From the NCBI GenBank assembly GCA_018062085.1, contig JAGOSY010000003.1, positions 13,215 to 77,214 on the forward strand: a stretch of 64,000 nt of DNA, read 5' to 3'. How positions within the stretch are numbered: position 1 is the stretch's first letter; the number at the start of each line of letters is the position of its first letter. A program made the position numbers and the translations under genes. The notes under the pieces were generated by a model. That model saw only the letters and a list, made by a program, of their open reading frames with translations. It made no database searches and had not been told where the DNA came from. Origin of the DNA: a bacterium. GTDB lineage: Bacteria > Cyanobacteriota > Vampirovibrionia > Obscuribacterales > Obscuribacteraceae. This document shows positions 14,600-48,799 of the stretch, piece by piece.

Positions 14600-14617
14600 C
14601 CACTAGCGCTAAGGAAC

Positions 14618-14659
14618 TTACTCTGGATGATTTGAGCGCTGAAGAAATTCAATAAATGA
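14618..14659 (-). pseudogene. Remnant 3' end of a GWYRIP-family gene
   Basis: On the minus strand these bases read SFIEFLQRSNHPE then stop, almost the same as the end of the intact paralog at 15615-16352 (SFIEFLQRSSHPELIP). At DNA level 14634-14659 is identical over 26 bases to 15640-15665, and the 13 bases before it match at 10 positions. No other part of the gene remains. The last codons of the 14649-15539 gene overlap this piece in another frame, so the copy was interrupted or replaced by that gene. Confidence 0.75.
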
Positions 14660-15539
14660 CAGATCGTCTAATTTGCTCAGGCATAAGCTTCCTGTAAATT
14701 TCATATGCCATCAAAGCAAGAGGAGAAGGGAAAAATTGCCTACTAGTTAAGTTGATTCGGCCGTCTACGCCAACTCCAGCCGCGAGGCTTGGAAATACTC
14801 CACCAATCAAGCGAGGAAAGACTTCAAGCAACACACTGGCAGCAGCGCAGTTCACGACCGCCTCAAACCCTCTGTGACCGAACTCAGAGGAGACAAAAAC
14901 CGGTCTAAAATCTACTTGCGAACAAAACGACCTTTCAACCGGTTCAAGAGCTTCAAGGAGGGGCGGCATCAATCGACCGCACCACGATGAACCTTTCGGC
15001 ATAAAAGCCACCGCAAGCTCTTGGTCAGTGGGCAGCCGACCGAAGTAATATTCTTTAGCATTCTCTCGACCGCATAATATATGGGTTGGGGCAAGGTCAC
15101 GCCAAGTACTCCGGTCTAATAAGTTACCACCACCAGCAAGCGGCGAGTCTGCCACAGGCCAGGCCAATACATTCTTGTAATAAGTTTTACTCTTTGTCTT
15201 GCCGCGCACAATCGAGGTCAATCGCTGCAATAGCCTCATAGATCGAGCTCTTTCGATCACATCTTCAAGAAGTACCCCGTACTCAAGACCAAAGTCATCT
15301 AGATGTATGCGATCGGCCGACCAGGGAAATCCATAAGAATCAATCCAGCCAATGGCACTTCTTAAATCACAAACTTTGCAAAAATCGCGCAGCATAATGA
15401 CACCATTTGCAGTGCCTAGATCATAGGTTCGCGCAGTAGTACTACGAGTAGCCAAAAGCAAAGGACCTTCTAGGGAATCTTCACTGGAAGCGTCAAAAAG
15501 CGCCCAAGGGTTAGAATAAGTCGGTTGAAACAATAGCAA
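14649..15539 (-). CDS. Protein of unknown function, bracketed by a direct repeat
   Basis: 296 residues from a TTG preceded by AGGA. No signal peptide or membrane segment. It has a CKVC pair near residue 55 and aromatic-rich stretches (IGWIDSYGFPWSADR). I recognise no family. Its general build (a helical region around IDSYGFPW, then LEDVIERARSMRLLQRL) faintly recalls uncharacterised proteins with a YG-containing helix, but this is too weak for a call. Its final codons (Val-Ile-Tyr-stop) lie inside the remnant of a GWYRIP-family gene, and the same sequence recurs about 1 kb upstream at the end of the neighbouring intact copy. This suggests the gene arrived by recombination between paralog copies. 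Confidence 0.65.
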   Translation of the reverse strand: MLLFQPTYSNPWALFDASSEDSLEGPLLLATRSTTARTYDLGTANGVIMLRDFCKVCDLRSAIGWIDSYGFPWSADRIHLDDFGLEYGVLLEDVIERARSMRLLQRLTSIVRGKTKSKTYYKNVLAWPVADSPLAGGGNLLDRSTWRDLAPTHILCGRENAKEYYFGRLPTDQELAVAFMPKGSSWCGRLMPPLLEALEPVERSFCSQVDFRPVFVSSEFGHRGFEAVVNCAAASVLLEVFPRLIGGVFPSLAAGVGVDGRINLTSRQFFPSPLALMAYEIYRKLMPEQIRRSVIY

Positions 15540-15614: not shown

Positions 15615-16352
15615 TTAAGGGATAAGCTCTGGGTGACTCGAGCGCTGAAGAAATTCAATAAATGAGTCTTTGTAGTTAAACTTGTCATCGCTATCGAGAG
15701 GGGCAAAGGCACTTGTTTTATGCTCTATGTAAGAAGCCGGATTGATCAAAACGTTTCTTAAAGTGCCGTCAGGCCTAAAATAAACTGACTTTTCAATCTG
15801 CGCAAAAATTGAGCCGTCAGGCCCTGGCGTGAAGCTGTGAATTTGCACAGTTCTGTAACTATCCAAAATACGGCGATCCTTTTTGCGCTCGCACACCATA
15901 AGAAAATAGTAGGCCATCACTACCTGGGTCTTCACGACACTTATAGGAACTTCCTCTTCTAGAATTGTGTGCACCACCATCTTGTCTTGATCAATGTCAT
16001 ACATGATTGGCTCACGCTTCGCCTCCCAGATATGACCTTTGGCGTCAATCTGTCGACCGCGCTCACGTCGGCGAACACTTTTCTCAACTCGTCCACTAGG
16101 ATCTATTGTCTCTGTTCTTATGGTGGCACCGGCAAACCAAGCAGGTATGCGATACCAGCCATTGATAATTTGCTGGGGCAAATTGCGATCGTCAAAAGTG
16201 GCGCCAGCCTGAAGTGTCTTGGGCACAACTTTCTGATTGCCAGCAGGCAACGTGCCGTTCGTAGGCACGTCGTCAGCCAAGACCCTCTGTGGCGCCGAGG
16301 CGATCGACAGAAGCAGAAGCAAAGGCAAAAATAGTCTTAGCAGTAAAAGCAT
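15615..16352 (-). CDS. Secreted protein, GWYRIPxWFAG family, copy A
   Basis: 245 residues with an N-terminal signal peptide (LLLLRLFLPLLLLLSIASAP). The mature part begins with LQAGATFDDRNLPQQ followed by GWYRIPAWFAG (~residues 67-77). A second block is RGRQIDAKGHIWEAKREPI, and the C-terminal block is FNYKDSFIEFLQRSSHPELIP, with the family's F-Y-K ... LIP pattern. There are no catalytic-looking triads or conserved Cys. Three more intact copies lie at 17706-18497, 47186-47998 and 48005-48799. I do not know a described family with this motif. The role is unknown; secretion is well supported by the leader. Confidence 0.85.
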   Translation of the reverse strand: MLLLLRLFLPLLLLLSIASAPQRVLADDVPTNGTLPAGNQKVVPKTLQAGATFDDRNLPQQIINGWYRIPAWFAGATIRTETIDPSGRVEKSVRRRERGRQIDAKGHIWEAKREPIMYDIDQDKMVVHTILEEEVPISVVKTQVVMAYYFLMVCERKKDRRILDSYRTVQIHSFTPGPDGSIFAQIEKSVYFRPDGTLRNVLINPASYIEHKTSAFAPLDSDDKFNYKDSFIEFLQRSSHPELIP

Positions 16353-16501
16353 ATGCTGAAAGTATCATACCTTTGGATTAGAAGACAGACTCATAGAACA
16401 TCAGCGATGATAGAGTAGCCTCTTCCAAACATTTTGATGTTTAAATCAGCCTAGATAAGGTAAATAAGAAGCGGAAGAGTCGTCACTAAGAGAGAAAACC
16501 T

Positions 16502-17626
16502 TTGTTGAAAACCGTTGGCAAGCAAACAATCGCCCCAGTTCTCATCCTTACAATCGCATATAGCGCCATGTCGGCATTAGCCGACGAGGCCAAGCCCACA
16601 GCTCCGAGCACCGAAGCAACGGCCTCTCCTTCTATTTCTATTTCTAGCTCTAGCGGCGGCAAAATTGAAAATCTCATCAAAGAACGTTACCTTCTGTACC
16701 ATCAAACCTTGCTCAGAGCTAACAGCTTTGATGAATTAATGCCATTTCGCTCAACCAAGATGCAGGCAGAAATGGAAAAGAAAAAGAGCGAAGCTTTAGC
16801 CAAGGATGGAGACGCCGGTAAGAAGATGATGGCCGGGCTATTTAGCATGGTCAAAGCAATGGAGCCACGCAACGTAACAGTTACAGCAGTTGCAATCACA
16901 GGCGACAGCGCCGAACTAAGCGTCACGGCCAGCGATGCTGGTGAATTTCCCGATGCCATGAACAAAGGTTTTAGCAACATGGCCAACAGCATCAGCGCGG
17001 GCCTAGGAGCTAAGCCTGGTGCAACCAAGCCAATGCGCAGCACCACCACTGGCAAAATTAAGATGGTGAAGGAAGGCGGCAATTGGTTAGTTGGAGAAGA
17101 GAGTTGGGCCACAAAAGTAACCAATCTAACTCCAGCACAAGAAGCCAAAAAAAATGCAGAAGATGCACAGAAGAAAGGCCTAAGTTCTTGGTGCGCCCCA
17201 GCAGCATCAATGGCATTTCCACAGAAACCAGCTGCAGGGCGCATTCATGGTCAACCATTCGTTGTGGAAAACGCCGAACTATCGAACGATATTTTGACTC
17301 TGCGACAAGGACGAGACTTCTTCGCCGACAGAGAATTTGTGATCTTTGTTTTTGGCCTTGATGGAAAACTCGAGGGCCAACAAGTTGTAGTCAAAGATGG
17401 TGCCCCCGTAGGAAAATCAAGTTGCCACGTGCACATGAAATGGCTAGTACAGGGCAAGAGCCTTCCTGAGACAGCAATGTTTATGCCCACCGATGGTTAT
17501 GGTATTCGCATAGCATTCGGCCAGCGCGACCCCAAAACAGGCTTGCTACCAGGATACATCGTGCTGCGTATGCCCGACAAAGAACAAAGCTTCGTGCAAG
17601 GCTATTTCTATGCCAAACGGAAATAA
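16502..17626 (+). CDS. Exported protein of unknown function
   Basis: 374 residues from a TTG preceded by AAGAGAG; a second in-frame TTG is at 16505. A signal peptide (IAPVLILTIAYSAMSALADE) is followed by a Ser/Thr/Pro linker. Residues ~55-215 resemble the small alpha+beta folds of exported proteins of the DUF4878 kind (helix YLLYHQTLLRANSFDELMPF, then strands VTAVAITGDSAELSVTA and KIKMVKEGGNWLVGEESW). That likeness is only by pattern. The C-terminal ~130 residues form a second beta-rich region with single Cys residues. The gene is on the opposite strand between two copies of the GWYRIP family. Confidence 0.8.
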   Translation: MLKTVGKQTIAPVLILTIAYSAMSALADEAKPTAPSTEATASPSISISSSSGGKIENLIKERYLLYHQTLLRANSFDELMPFRSTKMQAEMEKKKSEALAKDGDAGKKMMAGLFSMVKAMEPRNVTVTAVAITGDSAELSVTASDAGEFPDAMNKGFSNMANSISAGLGAKPGATKPMRSTTTGKIKMVKEGGNWLVGEESWATKVTNLTPAQEAKKNAEDAQKKGLSSWCAPAASMAFPQKPAAGRIHGQPFVVENAELSNDILTLRQGRDFFADREFVIFVFGLDGKLEGQQVVVKDGAPVGKSSCHVHMKWLVQGKSLPETAMFMPTDGYGIRIAFGQRDPKTGLLPGYIVLRMPDKEQSFVQGYFYAKRK

Positions 17627-17640
17627 GGCTTCGGAAAGTA

Positions 17641-17680
17641 GGTGGGAGTCGGTGAGAGTAGGTGAGAGTAGGTGAGAGTA
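17641..17680. repeat. 10-bp tandem repeat between convergent genes
   Basis: Three exact copies of ggtgagagta (17651-17680) follow one imperfect copy (17641-17650); a degenerate copy follows at 17681. It is non-coding, between the stops of the 16502-17626 gene and GWYRIP copy B. No hairpin potential is visible. Confidence 0.85.
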
Positions 17681-17705
17681 TGGGAGAGGACAGGCTATTG
17701 GTTGC

Positions 17706-18497
17706 CTAAGGCCCAGCATTAGCCTGAGGAATTAGACTAGACTGTCCTGTAGATTCCAAAAATCTAGTAAACGAGCCTTTGTAATCAAACTTCTCGTCTC
17801 TATCGGTTGGCTCGAAGTCTGCAATTTTATGCTCTACATATGAAGCTCGCACAGGCAGCGTATTTTGAAACACACCAGCGGCATTAAAGTAAATAGCTTG
17901 GGCAATGTTGGCGTTTATTGAGCCATCTGCATTCGGCGTGAAAACATGAATCTGTTCAGTCTGAAAACTCTTGATGATGCGGTGGTTTTTGATATTTTCG
18001 CATATCATTAAGGCGAAATAGCGCATCACTACTTGATCACGAGCTACTTTCAATGGCAACTCTTCGGTGAGAACCGTGTGCACTATCATATTTTTTTCTT
18101 CAATATCGTAGCGAATTGGCTCGCGACGGGCTTCCCAAACATGGCCCTTCGCATCAATCTGTCGACCGCGCTCACGACGACGCACGTCTTTAATTGATCC
18201 ACCCATATCTGAATAAACCTTGGTTCGCTCGGTCAATCCAGCAAACCAGTGAGGAATGCGATACCAGCCGTTGATATTCTGCTGGGGCAAGTTGGCGGCA
18301 TCGAAAGTTTCGCCAGCTTGCAGAGCCTGAGGAATGACATGGGTTTTCTCGGTGCCAAGCTGAAAAGTTGGAGTTTGATCCTGAGTTTGCGTTTGAGCAT
18401 AGGCAGGAGCCGAACCCAAGATCACAGCAAATGTGAACGAACAAGTGTATGCGGCACAGGTAAGACCGAGCAAGAAAAATAAGTTGATTCTATTCAT
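17706..18497 (-). CDS. Secreted protein, GWYRIPxWFAG family, copy B
   Basis: 263 residues from the ATG at 18497 (MNRINLFFLLGL), which has a signal peptide. A TTG at 18548 gives a longer frame but would spoil the leader, and the ATG overlaps the stop of a small upstream gene. Conserved blocks: LQAGETFDAANLPQQ, GWYRIPHWFAG, RGRQIDAKGHVWEARREPI, and the C-terminal FDYKGSFTRFL...LIP. It is the closest relative of copy A, and the central block RRRERGRQIDAKGH is identical in both. It is the last gene of a probable minus-strand cluster that starts at 22287. Function unknown. Confidence 0.87.
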   Translation of the reverse strand: MNRINLFFLLGLTCAAYTCSFTFAVILGSAPAYAQTQTQDQTPTFQLGTEKTHVIPQALQAGETFDAANLPQQNINGWYRIPHWFAGLTERTKVYSDMGGSIKDVRRRERGRQIDAKGHVWEARREPIRYDIEEKNMIVHTVLTEELPLKVARDQVVMRYFALMICENIKNHRIIKSFQTEQIHVFTPNADGSINANIAQAIYFNAAGVFQNTLPVRASYVEHKIADFEPTDRDEKFDYKGSFTRFLESTGQSSLIPQANAGP

Positions 18498-18652: not shown

Positions 18653-19279
18653 TCACTCCAGCTCCATGGAATCAAGCACAGACTCTATTACGCCGTGAAA
18701 ATCATCGAAAATCTCACTATCAGCGGTGTAATTGAACACATAGCCCCTATCTCCCTTAACAACAAGATATTGCTCAATTTTAGGGGTGCGTGGCGAATCT
18801 TCAAATGTAAATGTATAAATCGACTTTTTGGCTGGAACACCAGCTAACTTGCTATCACTTTCACTGACAACAGTAATTGGCATCTTTTGTGCGGCCATGG
18901 CCGCCTTAACTTGCTCGGTTGTAACTTTGAAATACTCGGCAAGTGTTGTTCCCGCAGGCAGACTCTCCACGGCCACGCGATAACTAGCCAAGCCACCCAT
19001 GATTAGGAACTTGCAAACTATTGGACTATCTCTAGGTTCCAGCTTGCCCCAGTTCTGAGGATACTTAATACTAAATTTGTGCTGAGGGCTGCTATACCGC
19101 AACATTTCCTTAAGAGAGAGTTGGGCTGCTTCTTTTACTTCCTTCTTCGTCGGAAATTCGCCAGCAAGTGCTGGACCCGCAGCCAGAACTCCCAGCAGAG
19201 TCCCTAGCAGCAGGCCTATCAGGCAGGCGTTGCCGAGAGCTGCCAATAGTTGTTTTCTAAATGAAATCTGAATTTGCAA
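18653..19279 (-). CDS. Exported PsbP/DcrB-like fold protein
   Basis: 208 residues from a TTG with GAGGG just upstream. The signal peptide spans ~10-40 (LLAALGNACLIGLLLGTLLG ... ALAGE). The mature domain has the pattern of PsbP-like proteins: FSIKYPQNWGKLE at the start, a GVPAKKSIYTFTF strand pair, EQYLVVKGDRGYVFNYTA, and the final helix VIESVLDSMEL. In plants and cyanobacteria PsbP binds photosystem II, but the fold is widespread in non-photosynthetic bacteria with unknown roles. The fold call rests on pattern, not alignment. It lies 39 bp after the TadG-like gene, with a hairpin covering its ribosome-binding site. Confidence 0.75.
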   Translation of the reverse strand: MQIQISFRKQLLAALGNACLIGLLLGTLLGVLAAGPALAGEFPTKKEVKEAAQLSLKEMLRYSSPQHKFSIKYPQNWGKLEPRDSPIVCKFLIMGGLASYRVAVESLPAGTTLAEYFKVTTEQVKAAMAAQKMPITVVSESDSKLAGVPAKKSIYTFTFEDSPRTPKIEQYLVVKGDRGYVFNYTADSEIFDDFHGVIESVLDSMELE

Positions 19280-47185: not shown

Positions 47186-47998
47186 TTGAACAAACTAGCG
47201 TCTTCAATCTTACTCTTCATAATTTTTGCAATGAGCCCACAGAGCTGGTTTACAGAACCAGCTCACGGCCAAGTGCTTCAAGGTGGCATTGAAGAACGCG
47301 CGACCCCGGTGCAAGACAAATTTCGCATCGGTTCAACTTTCTCTGAAGACTTACTGCCGGGCAATCACAAAATAAAAGAATGGTACAAGCTGCCAGCCTG
47401 GCTAACAGGCGGCTTTGAATCAAAAACACTAAAACTCACAACTCTGCTTGGCGCCATCGAAAGCAAAAACGAAACTACATGCATACGCGGCCTACAAGCA
47501 GATAAGACAGGCACGGTTTGGGACGCTGTGATTATTCCGAACTATGCTAGGGTCAAAACTGTTGGCGCCACAGACTTTGACATATTTGAAGAATACAAAG
47601 TACTAGAGAGCACGCCAGAAAAATTTCGCTGCGAAATTAAGTACACCGCAATAACAGTAGATGATCAATCGCACAAAATTTTACGCGCTGAAAAGCGCAG
47701 CGAGCTGCAAGAACTTGTACCGGCGGCCGACGCAAAAGTGATCGAATACAGCAAACAAATGCGCTACGACCAAGACGGCAAGCCTCTCATGCGCAGGGCA
47801 AAAAAGCTTGAAGTAATGCTTTTCCCCATCAGCAAATTTAAACCCATCGACCAATCACCAGGCGGTACCTTCAACTATAAAGAAGAATTTCGCACCTACT
47901 TAACCGAGTCAGGGCAAGCCGATTTACTTCCAGAAGAATCAAAAGGCAATCAACAATCGAAAGACACGCAACAAGCCACAGAGTCCAACCAGCCATAA
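47186..47998 (+). CDS. Secreted protein, GWYRIPxWFAG family, copy C (divergent)
   Basis: 270 residues from a TTG with GAAGG five bases upstream. Signal peptide: ASSILLFIIFAMSPQSWFTE. The family blocks are present in altered form: FRIGSTFSEDLLPGNHKIKEWYKLPAWLTGG, RGLQADKTGTVWDA and FNYKEEFRTYLTESGQADLLP. A Gln/Ser/Lys-rich tail of ~20 residues follows. The shared positions (WY(R/K)(I/L)P.W, RG.Q.D..G.VW, F.YK..F...L) make it a member despite low identity. It converges with copy D, 6 bp apart. Confidence 0.8.
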   Translation: MNKLASSILLFIIFAMSPQSWFTEPAHGQVLQGGIEERATPVQDKFRIGSTFSEDLLPGNHKIKEWYKLPAWLTGGFESKTLKLTTLLGAIESKNETTCIRGLQADKTGTVWDAVIIPNYARVKTVGATDFDIFEEYKVLESTPEKFRCEIKYTAITVDDQSHKILRAEKRSELQELVPAADAKVIEYSKQMRYDQDGKPLMRRAKKLEVMLFPISKFKPIDQSPGGTFNYKEEFRTYLTESGQADLLPEESKGNQQSKDTQQATESNQP

Positions 47999-48004
47999 AC
48001 GCGC

Positions 48005-48799
48005 TTACTTAGTGGGAATCAAATCATCTTGATTGGTTGATTGCAAATAATCACAGAAATCGCGAAAGTAGTCGCGACCATCTTCACTTCTAATTGGCTT
48101 AAAAGGCGCCTTGAGAAATTCGGTATAGTATTTTTTGAATGGCTTATCCAAAAGCGGTCGCCCTTGCTGATCGTAACCCATGCCCGTTGATTCAGCTTCA
48201 ATAGTACGACCGGCTCGGCCCGGTCTAAAAGTGTGCAGTTCTCTCTTTTGAATATTTGAAATAATTCGACCATCAGCTTTACTGACACGAATACCCATGG
48301 CATGAATTTCAAGCACAACTTGATTAGCACTAACTTCTAGCGGCTTCATCTCAAGAGTATTGTTCAAGTCATAACTATCACCGCGATCTACGCGCACCGT
48401 AAATGGTTCATTGCGCGGATGCCAGACATCACCGCGATGATCGGCCTGATAGCCGCGGCGCATGTCGCGCTGAGAGACCTGACTACGATCCGGATAACCA
48501 AACTTCTTTTCTATCAGCGCGTCGCGATGCCAGTAGCCAGCAAACCATGAGGGGATGCGGTACCAACCCCTGCCTGTATTCTGCGGCGGCAGATTCGTTT
48601 CCTGAAAAGTAGCTCCAGCTTGCAGCTTAAGCGGCAAGGGAGCGACTGTCGCTCTAAACTCAACATGCTCAGCCCCAGTACTCTCTCCAGTACTTTCTTT
48701 AGCATTCTGACTGTGCGCCTCTAAAGAAATAACGATAGGCGCCAAGACTGCCAACAGCGGCGCAAGACAAGCTAACAACAAGAACCTAGAGAGGCGCAT
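48005..48799 (-). CDS. Secreted protein, GWYRIPxWFAG family, copy D
   Basis: 264 residues with a signal peptide (LSRFLLLACLAPLLAVLAPI). Blocks: LKLQAGATFQETNLPPQNTG, GWYRIPSWFAGYWHRD, RRGYQADHRGDVWHPRNEP and the end FRDFCDYLQSTNQDDLIP. Its ATG lies 1 bp after the TAA of the GNAT gene, so the two are co-transcribed and probably coupled. Function unknown, as for the other copies. Confidence 0.85.
   Translation of the reverse strand: MRLSRFLLLACLAPLLAVLAPIVISLEAHSQNAKESTGESTGAEHVEFRATVAPLPLKLQAGATFQETNLPPQNTGRGWYRIPSWFAGYWHRDALIEKKFGYPDRSQVSQRDMRRGYQADHRGDVWHPRNEPFTVRVDRGDSYDLNNTLEMKPLEVSANQVVLEIHAMGIRVSKADGRIISNIQKRELHTFRPGRAGRTIEAESTGMGYDQQGRPLLDKPFKKYYTEFLKAPFKPIRSEDGRDYFRDFCDYLQSTNQDDLIPTK

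Follow-up and report, generated by a model that had tools for sequence, protein, structure and literature searches.

The described proteins closest to the family reported here are all-beta domains of three kinds. Nitrobindin, the heme-binding domain of THAP4 (PF08768), shares with the family an all-beta up-and-down build as well as an (A)LAGxW segment, which aligns with the WLAGTW of the family, and binds heme via a conserved histidine. The lipocalins (PF00061 and PF08212, the latter Lipocalin_2) are, like the family, exported beta proteins with a G-x-W close to where the first strand begins, and are built as a closed eight-stranded barrel with a side helix. The eight-stranded outer-membrane barrels of the OmpX/OmpW/Ail type have a signal peptide and an antiparallel meander in common with the family. 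Outer-membrane barrels typically end in a C-terminal aromatic beta-signal.

We analysed a stretch of 64,000 nucleotides (the window) from a 5.8-Mb, Candidatus Obscuribacter-like genome of the Obscuribacteraceae (Vampirovibrionia/Melainabacteria), whose genes have named relatives in Candidatus Obscuribacter and Candidatus Obscuribacterales, and in which an initial annotation had pointed out four secreted proteins marked by a GWYRIPxWFAG motif. They belong to one lineage-restricted family of predicted exported proteins, undescribed in the libraries and literature searched.

Four homologous genes in the window

The four copies proved intact where they had been annotated, as judged from their open reading frames. 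Copy A (15615-16352, minus strand) encodes 245 residues with a predicted signal peptide and an all-beta domain, copy B (17706-18497, minus strand) 263 residues, or 280 if an upstream TTG is used, copy C (47186-47998, plus strand), a divergent copy with an inferred TTG start, 270 residues, and copy D (48005-48799, minus strand) 264 residues. A and B flank a single exported gene on the opposite strand (16502-17626, plus strand; 374 residues, without a Pfam match), and C and D face each other with their stop codons 6 bases apart, both as originally described. The gene between A and B occupies the same position in two genus relatives with about 79% identity of its protein, and partial paralogues of its two halves occur separately at other places in the genome.

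A and B are 52-57% identical. BLASTP comparisons gave 33% identity for A and D (E=4e-32), 31% for C and D (E=7e-26) and 24% for A and C (E=3e-15). Searched with a profile of A, B and D, C scored E=4e-27, while 2000 shuffled versions of C gave 0.3 at best; this excludes the possibility, raised at the outset, that C and D resemble A and B in chance motifs alone. All four align across the full domain and are, on sequence grounds, true homologues forming one real family.

The motifs first proposed as common to all copies had to be revised. Motif search and translation located the exact GWYRIPxWFAG in A (GWYRIPAWFAG, 16128-16160, minus strand), where it opens the beta domain, and also in B (GWYRIPHWFAG, 18237-18269, minus strand) and D (GWYRIPSWFAG, 48536-48568, minus strand), but C reads EWYKLPAWLTG in translation and alignment (47378-47410, plus strand). 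Similarly, the LQAGxTF...NLPxQ block does not extend to C, which has FRIGSTF and LLPGN instead, and the C-terminal F.YK block does not extend to D, which reads RDYFRDF. The alignment yields a better signature, W..[IVL]P.W.aG.W ... G.Q.D..G.[IV]W ... F...G ... L.P, whose C-terminal part in its longer form is F..[FY]L...L.P; A, B and C lack the tryptophan after aG, and the four copies otherwise conform to it. Among 42 diverse members, W66, P70, W72, G75, G99, Q101, D103, G106, W109, G196, F231, L235, L243 and P245 (numbering of A) are near-invariant.

The conserved polar residues raise the question of whether the proteins could be enzymes that act on polymers of the envelope or the cell exterior, the active site being the Q.D pair of G.Q.D..G.IW and a Q.E pair. 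Q101 is found in 86% and D103 in 95% of the members, and Q and E occupy positions 167 and 169 in most of them. However, the latter two are replaced by R and V in copy A, D..G.IW resembles a hairpin turn, and no enzyme fold or family was matched, which leaves catalysis a very unlikely function.

The members share a layout of signal peptide, conserved mature N-terminal peptide and a single domain some 180 residues long. In 67 of 81 members, the motif is preceded by a hydrophobic stretch, and export, though predicted, is very likely; the lineage has a diderm envelope (PMC4040986). Lipoprotein anchoring was rejected because lipobox-like sites occur in just 5 of 85 members and at inconsistent positions. 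The N-terminal peptide has the consensus LQGGIEHS..LPPV...LR.G, and 81 of the 85 collected members score against its profile; within the window, it is clearest in C (47273-47341, plus strand; LQGGI..., motif profile A7). The peptide is still recognisable across linkers to the domain that are mostly 6-22 residues long and reach about 130 residues (one apparent length of 203 and two negative lengths are probably scoring errors). In the genome carrying the window, all matches of the N-terminal motif profile at E<=0.1 are family members.

Two partial hits to TrbI-like proteins in another family of the class had prompted the idea that the peptide is a general sorting signal. This idea was rejected: a scan of 60 genomes from that family with the profile gave no hit at E<=0.01, and the two hits are probably signal-peptide matches. 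Three exported proteins outside the family, encoded near members (L111:9135-10610, L139:8738-10177 and L140:1167-2594), begin their mature part with AEPLQGGI, which resembles the first residues of the N-terminal peptide and is too short to score. Members from the second family of the order (L051:708-2390, L053:995-2272 and L053:2488-3975) have an extra N-terminal domain, which begins like IIGYWLGKGVDTYSGQSYEIAL and is also without a Pfam match.

Distribution, copy number and selection

The genome carrying the window has at least ten family members by profile search, five of them on the contig of the window. Among 289 genomes drawn across the class, members are present in 48 of the 50 listed genomes of the host's own family, the two exceptions coming from one genus with small genomes. 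Three genomes from a second family of the order and three from one other, more distant family of the class also carry members, and two short N-terminal matches lie elsewhere in the class. A profile built without sequences from the distant family already matched it at E about 1e-6. The full domain is absent from 291 other genomes drawn across the phylum.

None of 42 members gave a credible match in Pfam or NCBIfam, PHROG and the PDB sequences returned no significant match for the family, and no description of it was found in the literature searched, which was covered in part. The initial statement that no described family is known with these motifs thus holds for these sources, and the profile search proposed along with it did return hits confined to one clade and without a named domain. 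Sequence searches on plasmids and phages were likewise without relatives; together with the PHROG result, this led us to reject an origin from mobile elements.

Genomes contain from 0 to about 12 copies, and the number increases with genome size (Spearman 0.70, p=0.0002, for 22 genomes without correction for kinship). The annotated expansion is therefore real, amounting to up to a dozen copies per genome: Candidatus Obscuribacter and its kin, non-photosynthetic relatives of cyanobacteria, have multiplied the family.

Orthologues of A, B, C and D stand at the same places in genus relatives. Against these, dN/dS was 0.04-0.06 for A, 0.03-0.04 for B and 0.06-0.07 for C, ratios that are approximate because synonymous sites are near saturation; for D, dN was 0.045-0.06 and dS 1-1.9. 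As estimated from the alignments, the genes are under strong purifying selection, with dN/dS of 0.03-0.07. We regard the status as a family, the restriction to the clade and the constraint as firm, with hardly any room for doubt.

These data also bear on a reading in which the proteins are surface or coat proteins diversified by contact with other organisms or phages, without binding small ligands. Such proteins would be in keeping with the rise of copy number with genome size and with the large sequence divergence between paralogues. The strong purifying selection on orthologues, unlike that expected of rapidly diversifying surface antigens, and the lack of relatives on plasmids or phages argue against this reading, which we consider unlikely.

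In a family tree made by a quick method, with many forks left open, A and B come out as sisters whose split predates that of the genus relatives. D lies within a starred set together with A and B, and C forms a long separate branch, its pairing with D being one of place only. Other subfamilies hold their loci across genera, for example a member adjacent to mnmG. That copies come in pairs is true of the loci in the window but not of the family as a whole, most other members of which stand alone.

In this clade, which lies at the base of the cyanobacterial phylum, a single genome can devote up to a dozen genes to the family. Being conserved, multiplied and confined to the clade, the family can serve as a marker and is probably part of what sets the envelope of the Obscuribacterales apart.

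Neighbouring genes and a lead towards metals

A search with tblastn detected an A-type gene remnant of 50 bases from the 3' end (SFIEFLQRSNHPE, followed by a stop) at 14610-14659 on the minus strand, with 84% identity to 15616-15665. It lies beyond the open reading frame 14649-15539, on the side away from A. In the relative L062, the homologue of this open reading frame is found on the other side of A, giving a swapped order. A duplication of A around the open reading frame, followed by the loss of one copy, would explain both the remnant and the swapped order, as this arrangement suggests. On the other side of the A/B pair, the window encodes at 18653-19279 an exported protein resembling PsbP (match to the Pfam family PsbP at E=6e-5, just above the cut-off), in a lineage without photosystems.

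Across about 75 member neighbourhoods, no gene accompanies the family in general, and no shared partner or system emerged. A universal neighbour was rejected, as the recurrent neighbours are either kinases, PAS and TPR proteins, which are widespread in these genomes, or genes linked by orthologous position. The envelope or extracellular system originally postulated is plausible in view of the signal peptides and the diderm envelope, but these neighbourhoods do not supply a shared partner gene or system for it.

A few neighbours nevertheless point to metals. FeoB adjoins the A/B locus in every genus locus covering the spot, and in another genus it lies 2.3 kb from a related member. A Spy/CnrX-like gene of the LTXXQ/heavy-metal-resistance type precedes C in each of the genus loci seen. 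Two species have a CzcB-like/CzcA-like RND pair between C and D (L067:8631-13158 and L060:2493-6996), which follows C at a distance of 264-269 bases and on the same strand. The members could accordingly be accessory periplasmic proteins for metal handling, with A and B serving the FeoB ferrous-iron transporter and C a heavy-metal efflux system. However, such genes occur in just a few of the about 75 neighbourhoods, the synteny with FeoB may be mere inherited position, and neither the window nor three other relatives have the RND pair between C and D. The family alignment furthermore has no invariant Cys/His cluster, its invariant residues being Gly, Pro, Trp and Asp. A metal-handling role is hence improbable as a general explanation, and we take the FeoB, LTXXQ and RND neighbours as a lead for a metal link, not as evidence for one.

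Predicted fold and comparison with known systems

The structure prediction and fold comparison proposed at the outset gave an all-beta model with a helix and no confident match in the PDB. AlphaFold2 predicted mature A (residues 40-245, 18 sequences) with a pLDDT of 94 and a pTM of 0.85. The model comprises ten strands, of which about eight are long, arranged as a meander and followed by a C-terminal helix. The model of D, predicted as the whole protein including the signal peptide, has the same order of elements at lower confidence (pLDDT 81), and the conclusions on the fold therefore rest on the PDB search with the better, mature-only model of A. Neither model found a PDB match at E<=0.001, and query-normalised TM-scores were at most about 0.27. 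Weak matches of the A model include nitrobindin and NanoLuc, the best being nitrobindin 3ia8 (E=0.075, probability 0.60, TM-score 0.23), and those of the D model include, among others, lipocalin- and OmpW-like barrels (E 0.01-0.07). With a structure that is predicted confidently yet unmatched in the PDB, the family is a reasonable target for structure determination.

The meander with long strands, together with OmpW, OmpX and Ail among the weak matches of the D model, could indicate small outer-membrane beta-barrels of the OmpX/OmpW type carrying a periplasmic C-terminal helix. However, a helix and L.P follow the last strand in place of a C-terminal aromatic beta-signal, charged residues are abundant on both strand faces in the alignment, and the Omp-type matches fade with the better model of A. 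Insertion into the outer membrane is thus quite unlikely, and we infer soluble proteins instead.

Our best guess is that the family comprises soluble periplasmic or extracellular calycin-like modules for binding or scaffolding, because a meander is followed by a helix, the domain has a G-x-W-like start, and there is no beta-signal, lipobox or obvious catalytic centre. G75 is invariant and W77 is present in 71% of the members, with mostly other aromatic residues in the rest, and both begin the first long strand; a G-x-W in this place is a hallmark of lipocalins, although so short a motif is weak evidence. The fold similarity to up-and-down barrels is weak but recurs with both models. Against the calycin-like reading stand the lack of a fold match at E<=0.001 and the low profile-profile probabilities, and no conserved partner gene in the about 75 neighbourhoods points to a ligand. 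We therefore hold this reading tentatively, at somewhat under an even chance. A genuinely new fold is a rather unlikely, if coherent, alternative: an exported all-beta domain in which a family-specific docking peptide would link the paralogues to one common envelope component.

In the calycin-like model, Sec export with a cleavable signal peptide would take the soluble protein to the periplasm or the cell exterior. The antiparallel meander, opening with P.W.aG.W, would form the body of a pocket or scaffold, against which the C-terminal helix ending in L.P would pack, closing the domain. The N-terminal peptide may dock the domain to another component or cap it, and the paralogues may have specialised through surface residues that select a ligand or partner. 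The conserved peptide offers a concrete bait for finding such partners.

Compared with nitrobindin, the family differs in having a signal peptide, the N-terminal peptide and the C-terminal helix. Profile-profile alignment (hhalign) with PF08768 gave a probability of 2.3%, no member among the 42 matched this Pfam family, and the genome carrying the window has no PF08768 match of its own. The heme-binding histidine of nitrobindin has no counterpart, since the family domain is without a conserved histidine in the alignment; the one frequent histidine (55%) sits in the N-terminal peptide. Lipocalins are approached by the weak matches of the D model to anticalins, nitrophorin and RBP, and the A model has a meander of about eight long strands plus a helix, with no fold match at E<=0.001 and TM-scores of at most 0.27. 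In the family, however, the last strand is followed by the helix and by no further strand, the hhalign probability with Lipocalin_2 is 0.4%, no lipocalin family was matched at E<=1 by the 42 members, and the genome of the window lacks a Lipocalin_2 match. The OmpX/OmpW/Ail barrels, despite their weak fold matches (TM-score <=0.27), part from the family at its C terminus, where helix and L.P stand instead of the beta-signal. In kind, the family resembles the lineage-restricted, functionally uncharacterised families listed in the FESNov catalogue of unknown gene families from uncultivated taxa (PMC10849945).
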